The position numbers and the translations under genes are program-made. Shown piece after piece: positions 68-40,656 of a stretch of 40,656 nt of DNA. The stretch spans positions 1 to 40,656 of IMG/VR virus record IMGVR_UViG_3300030116_006541; one strand, given 5' to 3'. Position 1 is the first letter of the stretch. Every line of letters begins with the position of its first letter. This DNA comes from a virus. Under the pieces are notes generated by a model. It was not told where the DNA came from. It searched no databases and saw only the letters and a program-made list of their open reading frames with translations.

Positions 68-83
68 ATATATTTTTTATTAT

Positions 84-114
84 ATTATCTAGCTATAATC
101 GTATTAAGATTGTG
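84..114 (-). promoter_or_regulatory. 31-base promoter-like motif, copy 1
   Basis: Read on the minus strand this is CACAA-N5-ATACGA-N7-TAGATAAT, shared with 1386-1416, 2082-2112 and 2221-2251 at identical internal spacing. Twenty of the 31 positions are the same in all four copies. It lies between minus-strand genes, overlaps the last codons of the upstream gene and points at the ATG at 67. It lacks a standard -35 TTGACA or the Bacteroidetes TTTG element. A phage-specific promoter is the best reading; an operator or replication site remains possible. Confidence 0.65.
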
Positions 115-523
115 ATTTGTAATTCTTTAGATAATATTCTAGCATATAGTTTAATCTAGCAAGACCTGAATAGATTCTAGCTCTTGATATAGTGGTAAAT
201 TCTTTAGTTTCAGTACCATTTTTACCTAAGAATACCCACCTTTTCTTTCTTTTATATGTAGGATTTAGTTGATATGGTGAGTAGCAACCGTTTTGTTTTC
301 TAACATAGCCTGATTTAAAACACGCTAATCTTAATTTAGGAAACTGACTTGGTTTAACTCTTCCATACCTTGTTTTAGGCGCTAGTGAAGATACAGGAAA
401 TTCAAACTCTCTTGTACCATTTTCGTACTGTCTACGTGTAGTTACTTCTACTATTCCATGATCGAATAGCATTTCTGTGATAAAAGCTCTTTCTAAGAAC
501 TCTTGTTCTTCTTTGTAAGTCAT
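104..523 (-). CDS. hypothetical protein, 139 residues
   Basis: This is the largest of the minus-strand early-type genes. Its start is the ATG at 523, preceded by the leader ATAACTATG that also precedes the genes starting at 935, 1709 and 2033. The protein is basic in its middle part (a run near YKRKKRW around residues 88-93) and Tyr-rich near the C-terminus. Two Cys occur (near residues 68 and 80). No catalytic motif, signal peptide or membrane helix is visible, and I do not recognise the family. The gene upstream ends 2 bases away, suggesting cotranscription. A nucleic-acid or host-protein binding role would fit the charge, but that is only a guess. Confidence 0.7.
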   Translation of the reverse strand: MTYKEEQEFLERAFITEMLFDHGIVEVTTRRQYENGTREFEFPVSSLAPKTRYGRVKPSQFPKLRLACFKSGYVRKQNGCYSPYQLNPTYKRKKRWVFLGKNGTETKEFTTISRARIYSGLARLNYMLEYYLKNYKSQS

Positions 524-525
524 AG

Positions 526-756
526 TTATTTATTTAATTTAGTTATTTTTTTGCGTAAGTGTATTATGTATAGCAACATAATAATGATAGTAACTGGTTG
601 TACTACAATAAATAATAGTATATTTATAGCTTCATAACTTAAACCAGTTATGTCACCGATATAGTATAGTAAATCTACACAGTAGTCAAATACTTTATTT
701 ATAAAATCTGTACTGCAACCATTGTCACAAGTTACATAGTTATATTGCTTTTCCAT
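526..756 (-). CDS. small membrane protein, 76 residues
   Basis: The N-terminal half contains Cys residues (CDNGC near residues 10-14 and another near 26). The C-terminal half is a clear membrane segment, roughly residues 43-66 (INILLFIVVQPVTIIIMLLY), ending in a basic tail RKKITKLNK. This looks like a single-span inner-membrane protein, probably with the basic C-terminus in the cytoplasm. The leader before the ATG is ATTAATT with no Shine-Dalgarno site. It sits 2 bases from each minus-strand neighbour in the same cluster. Its function is unknown; early phage membrane proteins of this kind often interfere with host envelope functions, which is inference only. Confidence 0.65.
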   Translation of the reverse strand: MEKQYNYVTCDNGCSTDFINKVFDYCVDLLYYIGDITGLSYEAINILLFIVVQPVTIIIMLLYIIHLRKKITKLNK

Positions 757-758
757 AA

Positions 759-935
759 TTAATATATTCCGAAGTTTGCAGTTGCACCATTAGCTACATG
801 GTATATTACCATTGCTATTCCGCTGAAAGCTATTGTGCCTAGCGCAGTTAATACAGCATCCATAAACATATCAAATGGATGAGTGTTTGTTACATAGTTG
901 TACACTTTATTGTACGTAAATTTGATTTTACTCAT
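759..935 (-). CDS. small membrane protein, 58 residues
   Basis: This frame reads from an ATG at 935 (leader ATAACTATG) to TAA at 759-761. The protein starts MSKIKFTYNK and has a hydrophobic stretch at about residues 23-46 (FMDAVLTALGTIAFSGIAMV region), then ends near GATANFGIY. It therefore has one predicted membrane helix. The opening residues resemble those of the neighbour at 1192-1374, which starts MNKIKFTNYN. Spacing to the next gene is 2 bases. The frame, leader and tight packing support it as real; the function is unknown. Confidence 0.6.
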   Translation of the reverse strand: MSKIKFTYNKVYNYVTNTHPFDMFMDAVLTALGTIAFSGIAMVIYHVANGATANFGIY

Positions 936-956
936 AGTTATTATATTTAGTTAAAA

Positions 957-1199
957 TTATTTTTGATATTTCTTGATCCACTCGTAATCTTTTTGAAACA
1001 TAGAAGAATCTGGTGCATATTTATTCCATAAGTCTACTAATTCTTGCGTCCATCCGCCTTGTTCGTCGACTTTATCGCATATTATTTTGTACTGTTGTCT
1101 ACCACGTTCGTAGTATCTATTGTCGTCACTCATCATAAAGGTATGGTCGTGACACTCAAACATTTCTTCTAGTGTTAAATCTTGAAAGTATTTAGGCAT
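957..1199 (-). CDS. hypothetical protein, 80 residues
   Basis: A soluble, acidic-to-neutral small protein starting MPKYFQDLTLEEMFECHDHT. It is rich in aromatic residues (Tyr, Trp) and ends in DYEWIKKYQK. Cys and His occur in ECHDHTF near residues 15-21, which could bind a metal, but there are too few further ligands to claim it. Its first 8 bases overlap the end of the 1192-1374 gene, so the two are probably translationally coupled. I do not recognise the family. Confidence 0.65.
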   Translation of the reverse strand: MPKYFQDLTLEEMFECHDHTFMMSDDNRYYERGRQQYKIICDKVDEQGGWTQELVDLWNKYAPDSSMFQKDYEWIKKYQK

Positions 1200-1374
1200 A
1201 AGTGTTATTTTTTATAGTGTAAAATTCTTTAATTGAAACATACTTTTGGTCTGCTTTGTCGTAATATTTAGTATGTGGCCAACGGTGTAGCACTTTATTA
1301 CCCTCGCTTGTTGTTAAAATAACATTTTGAGGTTGACCGAGTGCATTGTAATTAGTAAATTTAATTTTATTCAT
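1192..1374 (-). CDS. hypothetical protein, 60 residues
   Basis: Starts at the ATG at 1374, only 12 bases beyond the end of the promoter-like motif at 1386-1416. If the motif is a promoter, this would be the first gene of its transcript, with a very short leader. The protein begins MNKIKFTNYNALGQPQN and is polar with several Tyr and Lys and no membrane helix. The N-terminus resembles that of the 58-residue protein at 759-935, which may be a shared N-terminal tag or chance. It overlaps the next gene by 8 bases. Function unknown. Confidence 0.6.
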   Translation of the reverse strand: MNKIKFTNYNALGQPQNVILTTSEGNKVLHRWPHTKYYDKADQKYVSIKEFYTIKNNTYA

Positions 1375-1385
1375 ATTTTATTAAA

Positions 1386-1416
1386 ATTATCTAACTATAT
1401 TCGTATTTAATTTGTG
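1386..1416 (-). promoter_or_regulatory. 31-base promoter-like motif, copy 2
   Basis: Matches CACAA-N5-ATACGA-N7-TAGATAAT on the minus strand with spacing identical to the other three copies. It overlaps the final codons of the upstream microgene (1407-1511) and ends 12 bases before the start at 1374. Its position in a gap between same-strand genes and its orientation support promoter function for the downstream minus-strand genes. Confidence 0.65.
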
Positions 1417-1511
1417 TAATAGTATTCAGTATATTCTTCAATTGTAACATATTTCTCTATTTCGTTACAGTAAATCATACCATCTATTACATGAAGTTCT
1501 TCAAATGTCAT
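1407..1511 (-). CDS. microprotein, 34 residues
   Basis: The frame runs from ATG at 1511 to TAA at 1407-1409. The product is acidic and aromatic, starting MTFEELHVID and ending EYTEYYYTN. It has one Cys (CNE near residue 15) and no membrane helix. It follows the same A/T-rich leader style (TTAATACTATG) as its neighbours and fills what would otherwise be a long empty stretch in a dense array. Its small size limits confidence, and the function is unknown. Confidence 0.45.
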   Translation of the reverse strand: MTFEELHVIDGMIYCNEIEKYVTIEEYTEYYYTN

Positions 1512-1515
1512 AGTA

Positions 1516-1578
1516 TTAAGATTTTAGTATTAAGTATAGCATTAGTAAGTATAATGCACCTGTGATTAATGATAGCAT
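1516..1578 (-). CDS. possible hydrophobic microprotein, 20 residues
   Basis: ATG at 1578 to TAA at 1516-1518 encodes MLSLITGALYLLMLYLILKS, a single hydrophobic helix long enough to span a membrane, with a terminal Lys. The leader ATAAATACTATG resembles the neighbours and there are only 4 bases to the next start. It could be a membrane micropeptide, or a chance frame in AT-rich DNA. Confidence 0.3.
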   Translation of the reverse strand: MLSLITGALYLLMLYLILKS

Positions 1579-1589
1579 AGTATTTATAT

Positions 1590-1709
1590 TTAGTAATTCA
1601 TATACACTACTTCATTTACATGAGTTCTTTCTTCAACAGTTAGAAGATTGTAGTGTTTACCATATAATCTAAACGCTACTTTTAATTTATATGTATTAAT
1701 ATGTGCCAT
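1590..1709 (-). CDS. microprotein, 39 residues
   Basis: ATG at 1709, preceded by the recurrent leader ATAACTATG, to TAA at 1590-1592. The product starts MAHINTYKLKVAFRLYGKHY and continues with a more acidic second half (VEERTHVNEVVY). It is basic at the N-terminus with no membrane helix. The shared leader is the main reason to accept it. The function is unknown. Confidence 0.5.
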   Translation of the reverse strand: MAHINTYKLKVAFRLYGKHYNLLTVEERTHVNEVVYMNY

Positions 1710-1742
1710 AGTTATATGTATTTATAGTGTTAAACATTTATT

Positions 1743-1788
1743 AGTTCTCGTGTGAGTAATCGAAACCCACCTCTGCTCCAAGACGAGA
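1743..1788 (-). ncRNA. tRNA-like acceptor/T-arm fold
   Basis: On the minus strand, TCTCGT (1788-1783) pairs with ACGAGA (1751-1746). Directly abutting its 3' half, GTGGGT (1770-1765) pairs with ACTCAC (1757-1752) around the loop TTCGATT (1764-1758), a T-loop-like sequence. Stacked end to end the stems give 12 base pairs, the same total as the acceptor plus T stems of a tRNA. The fold is followed by ACTA where a tRNA has NCCA. Only 12 bases replace the D and anticodon arms, and the usual G53-C61 pair is T-A, so this is not a normal tRNA. It could be an RNase P substrate mimic, a processing signal, or a relic of a tRNA 3' end. Confidence 0.45.
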
Positions 1789-1796
1789 TGAAGAGT

Positions 1797-1820
1797 AAAG
1801 ACTTATTACACTAAGTCTTT
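1797..1820 (-). terminator. 9-bp perfect hairpin at the end of the 75-residue gene
   Basis: AAAGACTTA (1797-1805) pairs perfectly with TAAGTCTTT (1812-1820) around a 6-base loop. The stop codon of the minus-strand gene at 1806-2033 lies in the loop. There is no long U tract on the minus strand, so it is a weak candidate terminator. Together with the fold at 1743-1788 it suggests a structured RNA tail or processing site. Confidence 0.4.
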
Positions 1821-2033
1821 ATCTCTAAGTACCATTGGTATATTGTTAGTAGCTGTGTAGCTTTTATACTTTAACCAACATGGTAATTTAGTTAGTGTAT
1901 CTTTCATTATTGAAAATACTTTGTCATGATTGTAAGTGATTTTATCACCTTTTTTATTAGTGAATTCAAATGTTACATTTTTGCCAATTAGTGATTGTCT
2001 TACAACAAATCTTTTTGTGATTAAGTTACTCAT
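1806..2033 (-). CDS. hypothetical protein, 75 residues
   Basis: Starts at the ATG at 2033 (leader ATAACTATG), 48 bases after the end of the promoter-like motif at 2082-2112. The protein begins MSNLITKRFVVRQSLIGKNV. It is basic and beta-like in composition (alternating FEFTNKKGDKITYNHDKV) and has no membrane helix. The last codons and stop lie inside a perfect 9-bp hairpin (1797-1820), and a tRNA-like fold follows it. The family is not recognised. Confidence 0.6.
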   Translation of the reverse strand: MSNLITKRFVVRQSLIGKNVTFEFTNKKGDKITYNHDKVFSIMKDTLTKLPCWLKYKSYTATNNIPMVLRDKDLV

Positions 2034-2081
2034 AGTTATAAAATTTAAGTGTTATTAATTATTATTATTTAGTTACATTAT

Positions 2082-2112
2082 ATTATCTAATACATATCGT
2101 ATTGAGTTTGTG
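2082..2112 (-). promoter_or_regulatory. 31-base promoter-like motif, copy 3
   Basis: Same CACAA-N5-ATACGA-N7-TAGATAAT layout on the minus strand as the other copies, but with the least conserved N7 block. It lies immediately downstream of the 24-codon frame at 2123-2197 and upstream of the 75-residue gene starting at 2033. Confidence 0.65.
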
Positions 2113-2122
2113 TAAAAGTATA

Positions 2123-2197
2123 TTAATTGTTTATATATAAAAAGTATTGTAGTAGTATTCCGCACTGTCTCTCAATATCTAAATTATTATAGTTCAT
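2123..2197 (-). CDS. possible microprotein, 24 residues
   Basis: ATG at 2197 to TAA at 2123-2125, encoding MNYNNLDIERQCGILLQYFL and four more residues. The start is 24 bases after the end of motif copy 4 (2221-2251), matching the short promoter-to-start distances of the other minus-strand genes. It would be the first gene of the leftward cluster, or a leader peptide. Its short length keeps the call tentative. Confidence 0.35.
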   Translation of the reverse strand: MNYNNLDIERQCGILLQYFLYINN

Positions 2198-2220
2198 TTA
2201 TATTATTTTACTTATAATAT

Positions 2221-2251
2221 ATTATCTATATATAGTCGTATCTAAATTGTG
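2221..2251 (-). promoter_or_regulatory. 31-base promoter-like motif, copy 4
   Basis: Fourth copy of CACAA-N5-ATACGA-N7-TAGATAAT on the minus strand, with exact spacing. It is the rightmost copy and so the likely entry point for leftward transcription from the divergent control region. Confidence 0.65.
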
Positions 2252-2522: not shown

Positions 2523-2593
2523 TAGGATAAGTATAATTAATAGCAGGCAACTGTCACATTTAAATAATTTTTTATCTGTGTAATTATTTCTAT

Positions 2594-2865: not shown

Positions 2866-3159
2866 ATGACTTATTTTTATTACAAGACTAGCACATTGTC
2901 TAGTCAACCACAGGTAACCGAAGATACCATTGCAGCATGGAAACATCTAGCTGACAAGAAAAACTGGAGAATAGTACAACTATCTAATGGGTATTATCAA
3001 ACCGAATACCAAGACATCGAAAACAAAGATGTATGGCACGATGTTACAAGACGTGAAACAATAGAATCTGCAGAAGCAGCTATTGATGGTAGCATCGAAC
3101 ACTACGCTAAAAAGTTAGAGTTTGTAAAAGGACCTAAAGTAGTTAAAACTTTTGAATAG
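2866..3159 (+). CDS. hypothetical protein, 97 residues
   Basis: Starts MTYFYYKTST. It contains a compact central region WRIVQLSNGYYQTEYQ followed by WHDVTRRETIESAEAAID and a helical Lys/Glu-rich end. The pattern (Trp, IVQLSNGYYQTE, DVTRRETI) resembles, from memory, a small protein family seen in uncultured marine phages; no function is known to me. It lies 24 bases before groEL in the same orientation, so it may be coexpressed with the chaperonin. No membrane helix or catalytic motif is seen. Confidence 0.7.
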   Translation: MTYFYYKTSTLSSQPQVTEDTIAAWKHLADKKNWRIVQLSNGYYQTEYQDIENKDVWHDVTRRETIESAEAAIDGSIEHYAKKLEFVKGPKVVKTFE

Positions 3160-17062: not shown

Positions 17063-17118
17063 GTAGAAAAGTGTAATTATATGTAACTATTATAATACAA
17101 CAAATTAAATTTAATTAT

Positions 17119-18024
17119 ATGGAAATGTTTAATAAAAAAGAGCTAGATAATAGAATCGGCCCTTTAAAAAAAGAAAAAAGACTATACGAACTAGAAAACA
17201 TAGAAGGTTATGTAATTAGAAAGTGTAGCGAATATGGTATTGAGTCCAGCTATGATGTATTAGCTGAAGAAATGCCTTACTTTAAAACTATAGGATATAC
17301 TGAGTTTGCAGGTAATTTTTATTTACAACCTCTAAACTTTAAATTAAGAAACGAACAATTATCCGATGCGTGGAATAAAAATTGTGGTAAATGTCCAAAG
17401 CATGATTATGCTAGTTATTTAATAGATAATATACAAAATAATGTTGCTAATAAATATACTAACAGAAAACAACAATTTGATAAATATCCACCAAAAGACT
17501 ATTTAGTTGTTTTACCTGGATCTAACAAAATAAAAACAAATGTTTGTTTAAATAGGTTAAGACATATTAAAAAAATGCATGGTGATAACGTATATTTTAA
17601 GCCACATCCTATAACAACGCATCAAATTATAGGTGAACTAAAAGACTTTTTTGGTGAACAATGTATATTACCTAGAGATATTGATATGTACTACTATATG
17701 CAAAAAGCTAAAACAGTATATACAACACACATAAGTGAAAGTGCTGTATACGCAGCTGTTTTAGGTAAGAGAATAGAACCTATTGATGTATGGAATAATA
17801 TACAAAACGGATCTTTTTATACAATAAACAATTATTTATTTACTCACCAAGATAATATCAAAGAATTTATAAATAATAGCTTTTCTAATTTTGAATCAGG
17901 CATAATAAATCCTTGGTTAGAAAAAGATTGGAGGAGTAAAGTTGATAAGTATTTTGAGTATATAACAAAGAAGAGAGATAGTTATAAAGATTGGTTTATG
18001 GCCGATAACAAGAAAAAGAAGTAA
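17119..18024 (+). CDS. GT-B-like glycosyltransferase (capsule/teichoic-type), 301 residues
   Basis: The C-terminal half has the signature of GT-B enzymes of the KpsC/KpsS and CDP-glycerol transferase type. These signs are DYLVVLPGSNKIKTN at the start of the second Rossmann unit (about 127-141), VYFKPHPITTHQII with KPHP at 161-164, then AKTVYTTHISESAVYAAVLG with SES at 206-208 and GKR at 216-218. The N-terminal half is less clear and holds CGKC (89-92), possibly structural. The product would transfer a sugar or polyol from a nucleotide donor. It follows the fibre module after 56 AT-rich bases, so fibre glycosylation is the leading idea; modification of host surface glycans is an alternative. 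Confidence 0.65.
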   Translation: MEMFNKKELDNRIGPLKKEKRLYELENIEGYVIRKCSEYGIESSYDVLAEEMPYFKTIGYTEFAGNFYLQPLNFKLRNEQLSDAWNKNCGKCPKHDYASYLIDNIQNNVANKYTNRKQQFDKYPPKDYLVVLPGSNKIKTNVCLNRLRHIKKMHGDNVYFKPHPITTHQIIGELKDFFGEQCILPRDIDMYYYMQKAKTVYTTHISESAVYAAVLGKRIEPIDVWNNIQNGSFYTINNYLFTHQDNIKEFINNSFSNFESGIINPWLEKDWRSKVDKYFEYITKKRDSYKDWFMADNKKKK

Positions 18025-37822: not shown

Positions 37823-40656
37823 ATGGAAGAGTTATACAGACAAATGTATCTTAAATACGCTCCGAATTTAAGTGAGGACGAGCTGAATCAAAAGGTGTCT
37901 TACGCTATGACGCAGGATACAGATACTTTTGTAAACGCTTTTTACAACAAATACACAGGCGTAAATCCCACGCTACAACAATCAAACTACATAAAACAAC
38001 AAGATCCAGGCTTTTTTAGTCAAGCAGGAACATCTGGTGCTATTGGTTTAAGACAATTTATAATGGAACCTGTAGCTGCTATAGCTGAACAAGTTACTGG
38101 TGGTGTTAAAAACTTAGCTGATCAGTGGAAAAAAACACAAGCCGATGGTTTTCAAGCAGAAGATTTAGCTGCTTGGAACTGGGAAGAGTTAAGTACTGAA
38201 CAGCAAGTAGCTAATATGCAAGACCAGCAGATTAATGGTGTTAACTTAGGTTTTGGTAGAATGAAATCATCTAAGATGATACAAGATGAAGTTAAAGCAT
38301 TAATGGCTACACAAGTACAATACGACACTAGTATAACAGATGACTTTGCATCAGGTAATATAGGTCAAGGTATTGAAAGAGCTGTGTTGGGTGGTTTACA
38401 GTCTTGGCCAACTTATTTAGCTATGGCACATCCTGGCGCTTTAGCTGTGTTAGGTGGATTACATGCTGGTAAGAAGTTTAATGATGAGTTTAATAAAAAT
38501 CCTGAAGAACAAACAGGTTTATTATTATTAAACGCTGCTGGTACTGGATTAATAGAATTTGGTGGTGATTATCTAGTAAGAAGAGCTGTTATTAGCCCAG
38601 GTGTTAGACAATTTATAGGTGGTAACAGAAGTACTGCTGCTATAGATGCTGTTAGAGACATGGGATTAGGTGTTGCTGGTAGAATAATAAAAGCAATGGG
38701 TATGGAAGGCGCGACAGAAATGACTCAAGCATTTGCTGTTGATATATGGGATAGTGTAGATAAACTATACGGTACTGATATTAGAGTAGGTTTAGGTAAT
38801 GATAAAGAATATAAAAGATTATTTGGCGAGAACGGTGGTATAAATCCTTTTAATGGTAGTCGTAAAAAATGGCATGAGCTATTTGACGAAGGTATTATAG
38901 GTGCTGTAATGGGTGGTAACGTAAGATCTGTTACTGAGCTAGCATCACCTTCACAAGAAATTAGAGCAGAGATATTGTTTAGAACACAAGATGATAAACA
39001 ATATGTAAAGGATAAGTTTGATCAAGCGCAAGTTATACAAAAAGAACTTGAAGAAACAGAAGATGTACAAGTTATAGCAGAGCTTCAAAATAAACTAGAG
39101 GAAATAACCTTAGAAATAAAAACAAGAGCTAGTCAAGCTAGAAAGGTTATTAGACAAATGAAAGGTCAAGAACTTAGAAACTATGCTACAAACGTAGATA
39201 CTATAAGATCTGCAAACGAAGTATTAAATAAAGATAACATTGGTTCTGAAACTAGAAAAATACAAGAAAAGAAAAAAGCAGATGCTATAGCTAGAAATGA
39301 AGAGATATACAAAAACCATGTACATCAATCTTTAAATAACAACTTAGACGTATCACAAGCGTATGCTGATGCCGCTGGTCTTGAGCAAAAAGTTATAGAA
39401 AACGCTGATGATTATCAAAAAGCATATGAAAATTCTAACGCTGGTAAAAATCAATTTAGTGCTGATGGTTTCTTTATTGATGTAAGTAAATCTGACGGAT
39501 TTTTTGATGGTGCTGGTAGTTGGTATATAAATAAAGAACAAGCATTAAAAACAGAAGCTATATCAGTAGGATCACACGAGTTGTTACATGGTGTTATGAA
39601 GTCTACACTTAGAGATGCTAACGGTGTAATGACAAAAGAAGGTGAAGCATTACTAAAAAACTTCTATAAAATATTAACACCTAGTCAAAGAAGATATATA
39701 GATAAAAGATTAAACGAAGCTGGATATACAAAAAATCCTGATGGCACTGAAGTTGATTTTAAAGATTACGGAGAAGAATATTTAAACATGTTCTCTGATG
39801 GTATACAGTTAGGTGAAATAAAATACGATGAAGGCCTAATGACAAAAATAGGTAATTTACTTCAAGGTAAATTTTTAGATCGTAAAATAAATAAGAACTT
39901 TAGAACTGGTGAAGATGTTTATGACTTTATGAAAGGTTATAACAAAAGAATAAGAACTGGTAAAATTGATAAAGATATTGTTGATATGCTTAGACGAGGT
40001 GGTCAACAAGCTGGAGTTATGCAAAGATCTATTACACCTAGCGGTGATTTAATGGTTGATCTTGATAGTATGATAAAACCAAATCAAACTAAACAAGAGT
40101 TTCAAAATAACTTTCCTCCAGATCTAGCGCAGTATATATATGAAACAGATGCGTTAGATGGTTTAATAATGGAAAAAATTCAAGGTAAAGATATATATGG
40201 TTTATCAGAAAGAGAATTTAAAGAAGAAGTAAAGAGCGAAATAATACGTAAATCTTATCAAGAGTTTGATCCTACAAAAAACGAAAGCTTTTTTGGTTGG
40301 TTAACTGGTGTTAACAGATCTGGTAAAACTATAATACAATTAGCAGCTGGTAATATAAGTAATAGAGAAAAAGCTAAACAAGCAAAATCATTAGACGATC
40401 AAATACAAGGTAAAGAAGGTTCTACTATGACTCAGCAAATCGAAGACACATCGATGAATCCTGAAGAAGAGATGATTGCTGCTGAAGAACAAAGACAACT
40501 AGAGAAACAAGAAGATAATCTTAGAAGAGGACTTGGTATAAAAGAAAAAGGAGAACTATATAATGAAATACTAGATGCCAACGAAGCTGCATTATCAGGT
40601 GAGGTAGATCTAGATAATATAGAAAAAATATTAAACGATACCTTTGTTGCTAGATT
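37823..40656 (+). CDS. giant internal virion protein with HELLH metallopeptidase site (5' part)
   Basis: ATG at 37823, three bases after the previous stop, opens a frame with no stop to the window end (944 codons seen). The N-terminus MEELYRQMYLKYAPNLSEDE, then LNQKVSYAMTQDTDTFVNAF is helical. A hydrophobic Ala/Gly part lies near residues 185-290 (SWPTYLAMAHPGALAVLGGL; GLLLLNAAGTGLIEFGGDYL). Residues 585-589 are HELLH, with GEEYLNMF at 650-657 offering a Glu third ligand, so a gluzincin-like peptidase is possible. Long charged helices follow (RNEEIYKNHVHQSLNNNLDV lies before the site; EEQRQLEKQEDNLRRGLGIK after). This matches large podovirus ejection proteins that carry enzymatic domains. The 3' end is outside the window. 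Confidence 0.7.
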   Translation, partial: MEELYRQMYLKYAPNLSEDELNQKVSYAMTQDTDTFVNAFYNKYTGVNPTLQQSNYIKQQDPGFFSQAGTSGAIGLRQFIMEPVAAIAEQVTGGVKNLADQWKKTQADGFQAEDLAAWNWEELSTEQQVANMQDQQINGVNLGFGRMKSSKMIQDEVKALMATQVQYDTSITDDFASGNIGQGIERAVLGGLQSWPTYLAMAHPGALAVLGGLHAGKKFNDEFNKNPEEQTGLLLLNAAGTGLIEFGGDYLVRRAVISPGVRQFIGGNRSTAAIDAVRDMGLGVAGRIIKAMGMEGATEMTQAFAVDIWDSVDKLYGTDIRVGLGNDKEYKRLFGENGGINPFNGSRKKWHELFDEGIIGAVMGGNVRSVTELASPSQEIRAEILFRTQDDKQYVKDKFDQAQVIQKELEETEDVQVIAELQNKLEEITLEIKTRASQARKVIRQMKGQELRNYATNVDTIRSANEVLNKDNIGSETRKIQEKKKADAIARNEEIYKNHVHQSLNNNLDVSQAYADAAGLEQKVIENADDYQKAYENSNAGKNQFSADGFFIDVSKSDGFFDGAGSWYINKEQALKTEAISVGSHELLHGVMKSTLRDANGVMTKEGEALLKNFYKILTPSQRRYIDKRLNEAGYTKNPDGTEVDFKDYGEEYLNMFSDGIQLGEIKYDEGLMTKIGNLLQGKFLDRKINKNFRTGEDVYDFMKGYNKRIRTGKIDKDIVDMLRRGGQQAGVMQRSITPSGDLMVDLDSMIKPNQTKQEFQNNFPPDLAQYIYETDALDGLIMEKIQGKDIYGLSEREFKEEVKSEIIRKSYQEFDPTKNESFFGWLTGVNRSGKTIIQLAAGNISNREKAKQAKSLDDQIQGKEGSTMTQQIEDTSMNPEEEMIAAEEQRQLEKQEDNLRRGLGIKEKGELYNEILDANEAALSGEVDLDNIEKILNDTFVAR

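Follow-up and report, generated by a model that had tools for sequence, protein, structure and literature searches.

Motif A: a predicted early promoter of uncultivated marine flavobacterial phages, probably read by a sigma-type factor

The 40,656-base stretch analysed here over its whole length (the window) is an IMG/VR fragment, IMGVR_UViG_3300030116_006541, of a podovirus-like phage, and it carries near its left end a 31-base motif (motif A) that recurs in front of minus-strand genes. The question raised by this locus is which RNA polymerase, if any, reads the motif. The initial annotation had proposed a phage-specific promoter without host elements, possibly served by a T7-type polymerase; comparison with related contigs supports the promoter proposal well, while the T7-type polymerase is probably wrong. 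Motif A appears to be a real, lineage-wide, dedicated early-gene promoter of an uncultivated marine flavobacterial phage clade. The best overall explanation, which we consider probable, is an early promoter with a sigma-type reader, belonging to a programme formed by motif A, a phage sigma factor and a second promoter class, B. A literature search, which covered few subscription papers, found no description of either promoter class.

Motif A in the window and in its relatives

A pattern search of the window with CACAA-N5-ATACGA-N7-TAGATAAT returned exactly four matches without any mismatch, all on the minus strand, confirming the four copies of identical internal spacing described before. When up to three mismatches were allowed, 100 dinucleotide shuffles gave a chance expectation of 0.04 for the 31-base motif, with a largest count of 1. 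The copies lie at 84-114 (-10-like GATAAT at 84-89; position weight matrix (PWM) score 37.7), 1386-1416 (GATAAT at 1386-1391; PWM score 39.3), 2082-2112 (GATAAT at 2082-2087) and 2221-2251 (GATAAT at 2221-2226), the last being the outermost early promoter. The next minus-strand ATG follows copy 2 by 11 nt, copy 1 by 16 nt (ATG at 67) and copy 4 by 23 nt, in agreement with the 12-24 bases claimed for three copies, and it follows copy 3 by about 48 nt. Copy 1 faces an open reading frame (ORF) that runs off the contig, copy 2 is predicted to drive ORF 1192-1374, copy 3 stands upstream of a 75-amino-acid early gene (1806-2033), and copy 4 precedes a 24-codon ORF (2123-2197, minus strand, start at 2197), which may encode a peptide or act as a leader. 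The gene after copy 1 also follows a motif copy at a homologous site in the relatives G001 and G056, and a homologous site in G056 matches both copy 4 and the start of the 24-codon ORF.

Hundreds of closer relatives are present in IMG/VR, from which seven near-complete genomes of 65-69 kb were pulled; the uncultivated motif-bearing contigs reach about 70 kb. In a scan of viral contigs the exact pattern turned up in 46 stretches, and a relaxed form of it in more than 118. Each near-complete relative has 6-11 A sites (≤2 mismatches), all on one strand, which cluster beside the divergence between early and late genes and extend into the early genes, whereas other records show occasional weak matches on the opposite strand. 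Non-coding DNA accounts for only 6-14% of these genomes, yet about three quarters of the sites fall mostly within it; there is one copy per early gene or small gene group, in a single orientation. Rather than being scattered in both orientations, 559 of the 563 sites gathered share the strand that predominates at their locus. The logo gives the consensus yACAAAcTAAATACGA-N8-(w)RGATAATATAAATR, in which ACAAA, TAAATACGA and GATAATA are strongly conserved with N8 between, and 54% of the phage sites match the scanned pattern exactly. Variant sites, where GGGCACGA or AACACGA replaces AAATACGA, occur in several copies within one genome (G043 1538-2639; G066 C16), and they look like lineage-specific drift of the recognition block.

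The aligned sites also locate a likely transcription start. Conservation runs on for about eight bases after GATAAT and includes a purine at exactly the seventh base. In 121 sites an ATG begins after exactly 6 nt (after 5 nt in 1 site and after 7 nt in 10), and in those 121 the purine at base 7 is the A of the start codon itself. The 442 non-leaderless sites have the same step: base 7 is A in 52% and G in 46% (98% purine), and base 6 is T in 66% and C in 9% (75% pyrimidine). Apart from the 121 sites with the ATG at 6 nt, 134 sites have an ATG at 4 bases, nearly always followed immediately by a stop (mostly TGTAA in that register), so that base 7 is G. An A-rich leader follows the motif. The pyrimidine-purine step seven bases after xATAAT, together with the phasing of the ATG, fits a sigma-type geometry. 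The most plausible reading thus makes GATAAT a -10 hexamer and the base-7 purine +1, which would often give leaderless transcripts, and we infer that the ACAAAcTAAATACGA block at about -36 to -22 replaces the normal -35 element as a specificity block. The reported lack of a host -35/-33 element also holds, with TTG near -33 in 4 of 563 sites; the TAHHTTTG -7 element with its T-12 is equally rare (TAnnTTTG in 2 of 563), the logo having G at -12.

The phage sigma factor, promoter class B and rival readers

The window's own contig is incomplete, and the sigma gene falls outside the fragment but is seen in the relatives, where a sigma-70-family factor is conserved (PHROG 351 at 6e-23; Pfam r2 and r4, regions 2 and 4); in G001 its gene lies at 62958-63725. 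All 25 A-bearing contigs with a length of 59 kb or more have the gene, and the nine A-bearing contigs without it are all shorter than 59 kb. To judge from these searches, the sigma factor is the only recognised candidate for a phage-encoded reader of motif A. One A-bearing contig, G373, has a sigma gene with a frameshift and stops (55767-56520), either an assembly error or real.

A de novo search for dyads upstream of late genes and of the remaining early genes revealed a second promoter class, B, with the form KTAAA-N14-TGTRAYTAT, in the relatives and in the window. The 14-bp spacer from KTAAA to TGT is exact in 45 of 72 sites. The phasing of the start is as in motif A, with an ATG at 6 nt in 13 cases and 82% purine at base 7, and the two classes share purine-12, A-11, A-8, T-7 and an A/T-rich discriminator. 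Class B usually occurs one to three times per relative, ahead of the late operon, one mid-late gene and the gene that directly follows sigma. In the window, TTAAA-N14-TGTAATTAT (2560-2587, plus strand) heads the late operon six bases before the ATG of ORF 2594-2842, at a position homologous in G001, G056 and others. A second B-like element, TGTAACTAT (17082-17090, plus strand), lies ahead of ORF 17119-18024 with no clear KTAAA partner. By its layout, class B would be a textbook bipartite promoter with an extended -10, suited to a sigma factor with regions 2 and 4.

A different kind of reader would be a single-subunit or other phage RNA polymerase starting at the G of GATAAT, encoded outside the window or carried in the virion. 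This invariant G (G25) lies nine bases after AATACGA, an offset which we take to equal that of the T7 promoter to its +1, and the specificity block bears little resemblance to any host consensus. The phasing of the base-7 purine and the ATG is not expected from a start at that G. The search for a single-subunit polymerase gene elsewhere in the genome, suggested earlier, gave nothing for PF00940 at E ≤ 1 in the seven near-complete relatives and nothing at the default threshold in 27 records, although the same profile recovered T7 RNA polymerase and N4 RNAPII as positive controls; a T7-type reader was dropped on these results, on the sigma-like phasing of GATAAT and purine, and on the presence of a sigma factor instead. 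The multi-subunit alternative was also rejected: PF00623 (beta'), a profile not specific to crAss-like enzymes, found 14 of 14 control genomes and no relative at E ≤ 10, and D.D.D strings (DxDxD/DxDGD) of a beta'-type catalytic domain are not conserved between relatives. The related crAss-like phages of Bacteroidota inject a giant RNA polymerase (PMC10136315), and the present phages have a giant virion protein of 2.4-3.7 thousand amino acids, whose N-terminal 944 residues end the window (37823-40654, plus strand). It and a muzzle-like protein are the only very large conserved gene families. Its N-terminus is very divergent, the conserved blocks lie in the C-terminal third, and the conserved part consists of an N-terminal alpha/beta HAD-like segment followed by a mostly helical region to the C-terminus. 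No isolate phage was matched by tblastn, and as a polymerase candidate the protein was discarded, having no Pfam, PHROG or PDB sequence support and no AlphaFold/Foldseek match from a low-confidence model (predicted local distance difference test, pLDDT, 57). A phage polymerase as the reader is thus quite unlikely, and the T7 resemblance of AATACGA appears coincidental.

The reader could also come from the host, as an alternative sigma factor or activator acting with host RNA polymerase on promoters that copy a host regulon. Exact matches to motif A do occur in chromosomes of Flavobacteriaceae and other Bacteroidota, upstream of small secreted-protein genes (L185, L189, L190, L191), and since no host primary promoter is conserved in the early block, something already present must act first. 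However, the non-phage hits collapse to about 4 independent events, whereas chance alone would yield about 11 for this pattern in 100 Gb of A+T-rich DNA, and a scan of 299 Flavobacteriaceae genomes at up to two mismatches gave no more matches than a reversed control; a regulon as strict as the phage sites, with their share of exact matches, should have been visible. With chromosomal matches within chance and no family-wide enrichment, the host regulon was set aside as improbable, and the host primary sigma is an unlikely reader. The secreted proteins at the chromosomal sites are of the GYWKDN and GLWHSED types, and the sites are duplicated within two genomes; the shared gene type is odd, though the independent events stay within chance. 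It is very unlikely that motif A is not a promoter at all and serves instead, in repeated copies across the early block, as a regulator binding site or as a signal for translation or replication: the upstream block of 15-16 bp is long enough for an operator and the motif lies very close to ATGs, yet the strict -10-like hexamer, the initiator purine, the A-rich leader, the single copy per early gene or group and the one orientation all speak for a promoter.

Motif A is therefore weighed here as a promoter that is very probably read by host core RNA polymerase carrying a sigma-type factor. More tentatively, this factor would be supplied by the phage, the clade's own sigma being the simplest choice; that the phage sigma itself reads motif A is a possibility that we place somewhat below an even chance. 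In the proposed mechanism, a phage factor, with or without a helper at the upstream block, would recruit the host core to motif A. As the sigma gene lies in the A-driven block, A promoters and sigma would be linked in a feed-forward loop, and the same sigma would then open the class B promoters ahead of the late operon and of the gene after sigma. Since no conserved host-type -7 element precedes the block, a virion-delivered factor may be required for the first round.

Several observations weigh against this account. The upstream block of 16 bp (-37 to -22) exceeds the length contacted by sigma region 4, and in two of the four window copies the seventh base is T, not a purine (the sixth being G or A). 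The T7-like offset from AATACGA to the invariant G counts here as well. The nearest A sites lie 0.6-2.9 kb upstream of the sigma gene, so that sigma could play no role in the first transcripts unless it is packaged or expressed from an unrecognised promoter; a host-type -7 promoter that might start the cascade was considered and rejected, none being conserved upstream of the sigma gene or in the early block of the relatives. The co-occurrence of A, B and sigma could also be mere clade marking.

A bolder version, in which the clade starts infection from a promoter that the unmodified host polymerase cannot read, by means of a virion-carried sigma or activator that yields leaderless early mRNAs, is speculative and rather doubtful. 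If true, such a "virion sigma" would parallel the RNA polymerases that N4 and crAss-like phages carry in their virions. The favoured sigma-type account would give a large and common group of uncultivated marine phages a compact two-class programme (A, phage sigma, B), and the motif offers a strand-specific marker of about 30 bases that locates early genes in contigs. If confirmed, the programme would represent a phage bypass of the divergent Bacteroidota sigma without a polymerase of its own, and an orthogonal promoter/sigma pair for flavobacterial genetics.

Genes and elements around the promoters

The window carries groEL, terminase, portal and muzzle-like protein genes, and its terminase and portal match those of Flavobacterium elemo phages, Maribacter phage Panino, Cellulophaga phi38:1 and phi18:3, Tenacibaculum Gundel and MW202828. 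The early gene block (104-2033, minus strand) comprises ORFs 104-523, 526-756, 759-935, 957-1199, 1192-1374 and 1806-2033, which encode small proteins that PHROG and Pfam do not convincingly assign to a family; relatives share several of them. The first early protein, of 75 amino acids (1806-2033, minus strand), belongs to a family with members in each of the eight genomes and a duplicate in three of them, likewise without a Pfam or PHROG match, and is a candidate host-takeover or transcription factor. Sequences resembling tRNA occur in the early block of relatives G044 (upstream of 62765), G043 and G060, and none was found in the window.

Between the early and late promoters lies a 43-nt inverted repeat (2442-2484), GTGACA-n-TAGCC...GGCT-n-TGTCAC. 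Its position and spacing are conserved in relatives as TGTGACA-nn-AGCC...GGCT-nn-TGTCACA over 42-43 nt (G001 2991-3033; G056 41489-41531; G044 58461-58503 and 65381-65422; G060 3028-3070; G041 2857-2899; G051 64924-64966). The repeat occurs where early and late genes diverge, and a second time directly before the gene for a 205-amino-acid helix-turn-helix protein adjacent to sigma, and is possibly an operator or a hairpin for the early-to-late switch.

Comparison with known systems

The nearest known phages (Pervagoviridae, Pachyviridae, the elemo phages, Panino and MW202828) share a homologous terminase (31-62% identity), a homologous portal (42-54% identity) and divergent early and late arms. 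Unlike the present clade, the six related records (elemo, Panino, MW202828, phi38:1, phi18:3 and Gundel) lack motif A and sigma, and B as well, save one likely chance match in Gundel_1.

T7-type promoters have the form TAATACGACTCACTATA-GGG. Motif A shares with them the AATACGA core and the offset to the first invariant G, but differs in its ACAAACT block, which reaches about -36 in sigma register, in GATAATATAAAT and the initiator purine downstream, and in that no single-subunit RNA polymerase was found. T4 middle promoters combine a MotA box with a -10 element and resemble motif A in that a long block near -30 replaces the -35 and is followed by a -10 hexamer. Motif A has the corresponding block at about -36 to -22 and GATAAT, with no activator identified; unlike the T4 promoters it is the earliest class by position, and no MotA or AsiA homologue was recognised.

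The primary sigma-ABfr promoters of Flavobacterium contain TTTG and TAHHTTTG with a near-invariant T-12 (PMC6847099). Classes A and B likely share with them the same core enzyme, and are similarly A/T-rich without a Shine-Dalgarno sequence, whereas they have a purine rather than T at -12, lack the -7 and -33 elements, and add an upstream specificity block and a leaderless option.

The closest parallel in layout is offered by phiEco32 and 7-11, in which a phage sigma (phi32_gp36, SaPh711_gp47) redirects host core RNA polymerase to the middle and late genes (PMC8948821). These are also podoviruses of about 70 kb with an early/middle arm opposite the late arm, and their transcripts start 6-9 bp from the conserved element, as predicted here. 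The relatives of the window likewise encode a sigma-70-family factor and have lineage-specific promoters (class B). However, the early genes of phiEco32 and 7-11 use host sigma-70, whereas the early genes here carry their own dedicated non-host promoter in 6-11 copies, with a second promoter class ahead of the late genes.

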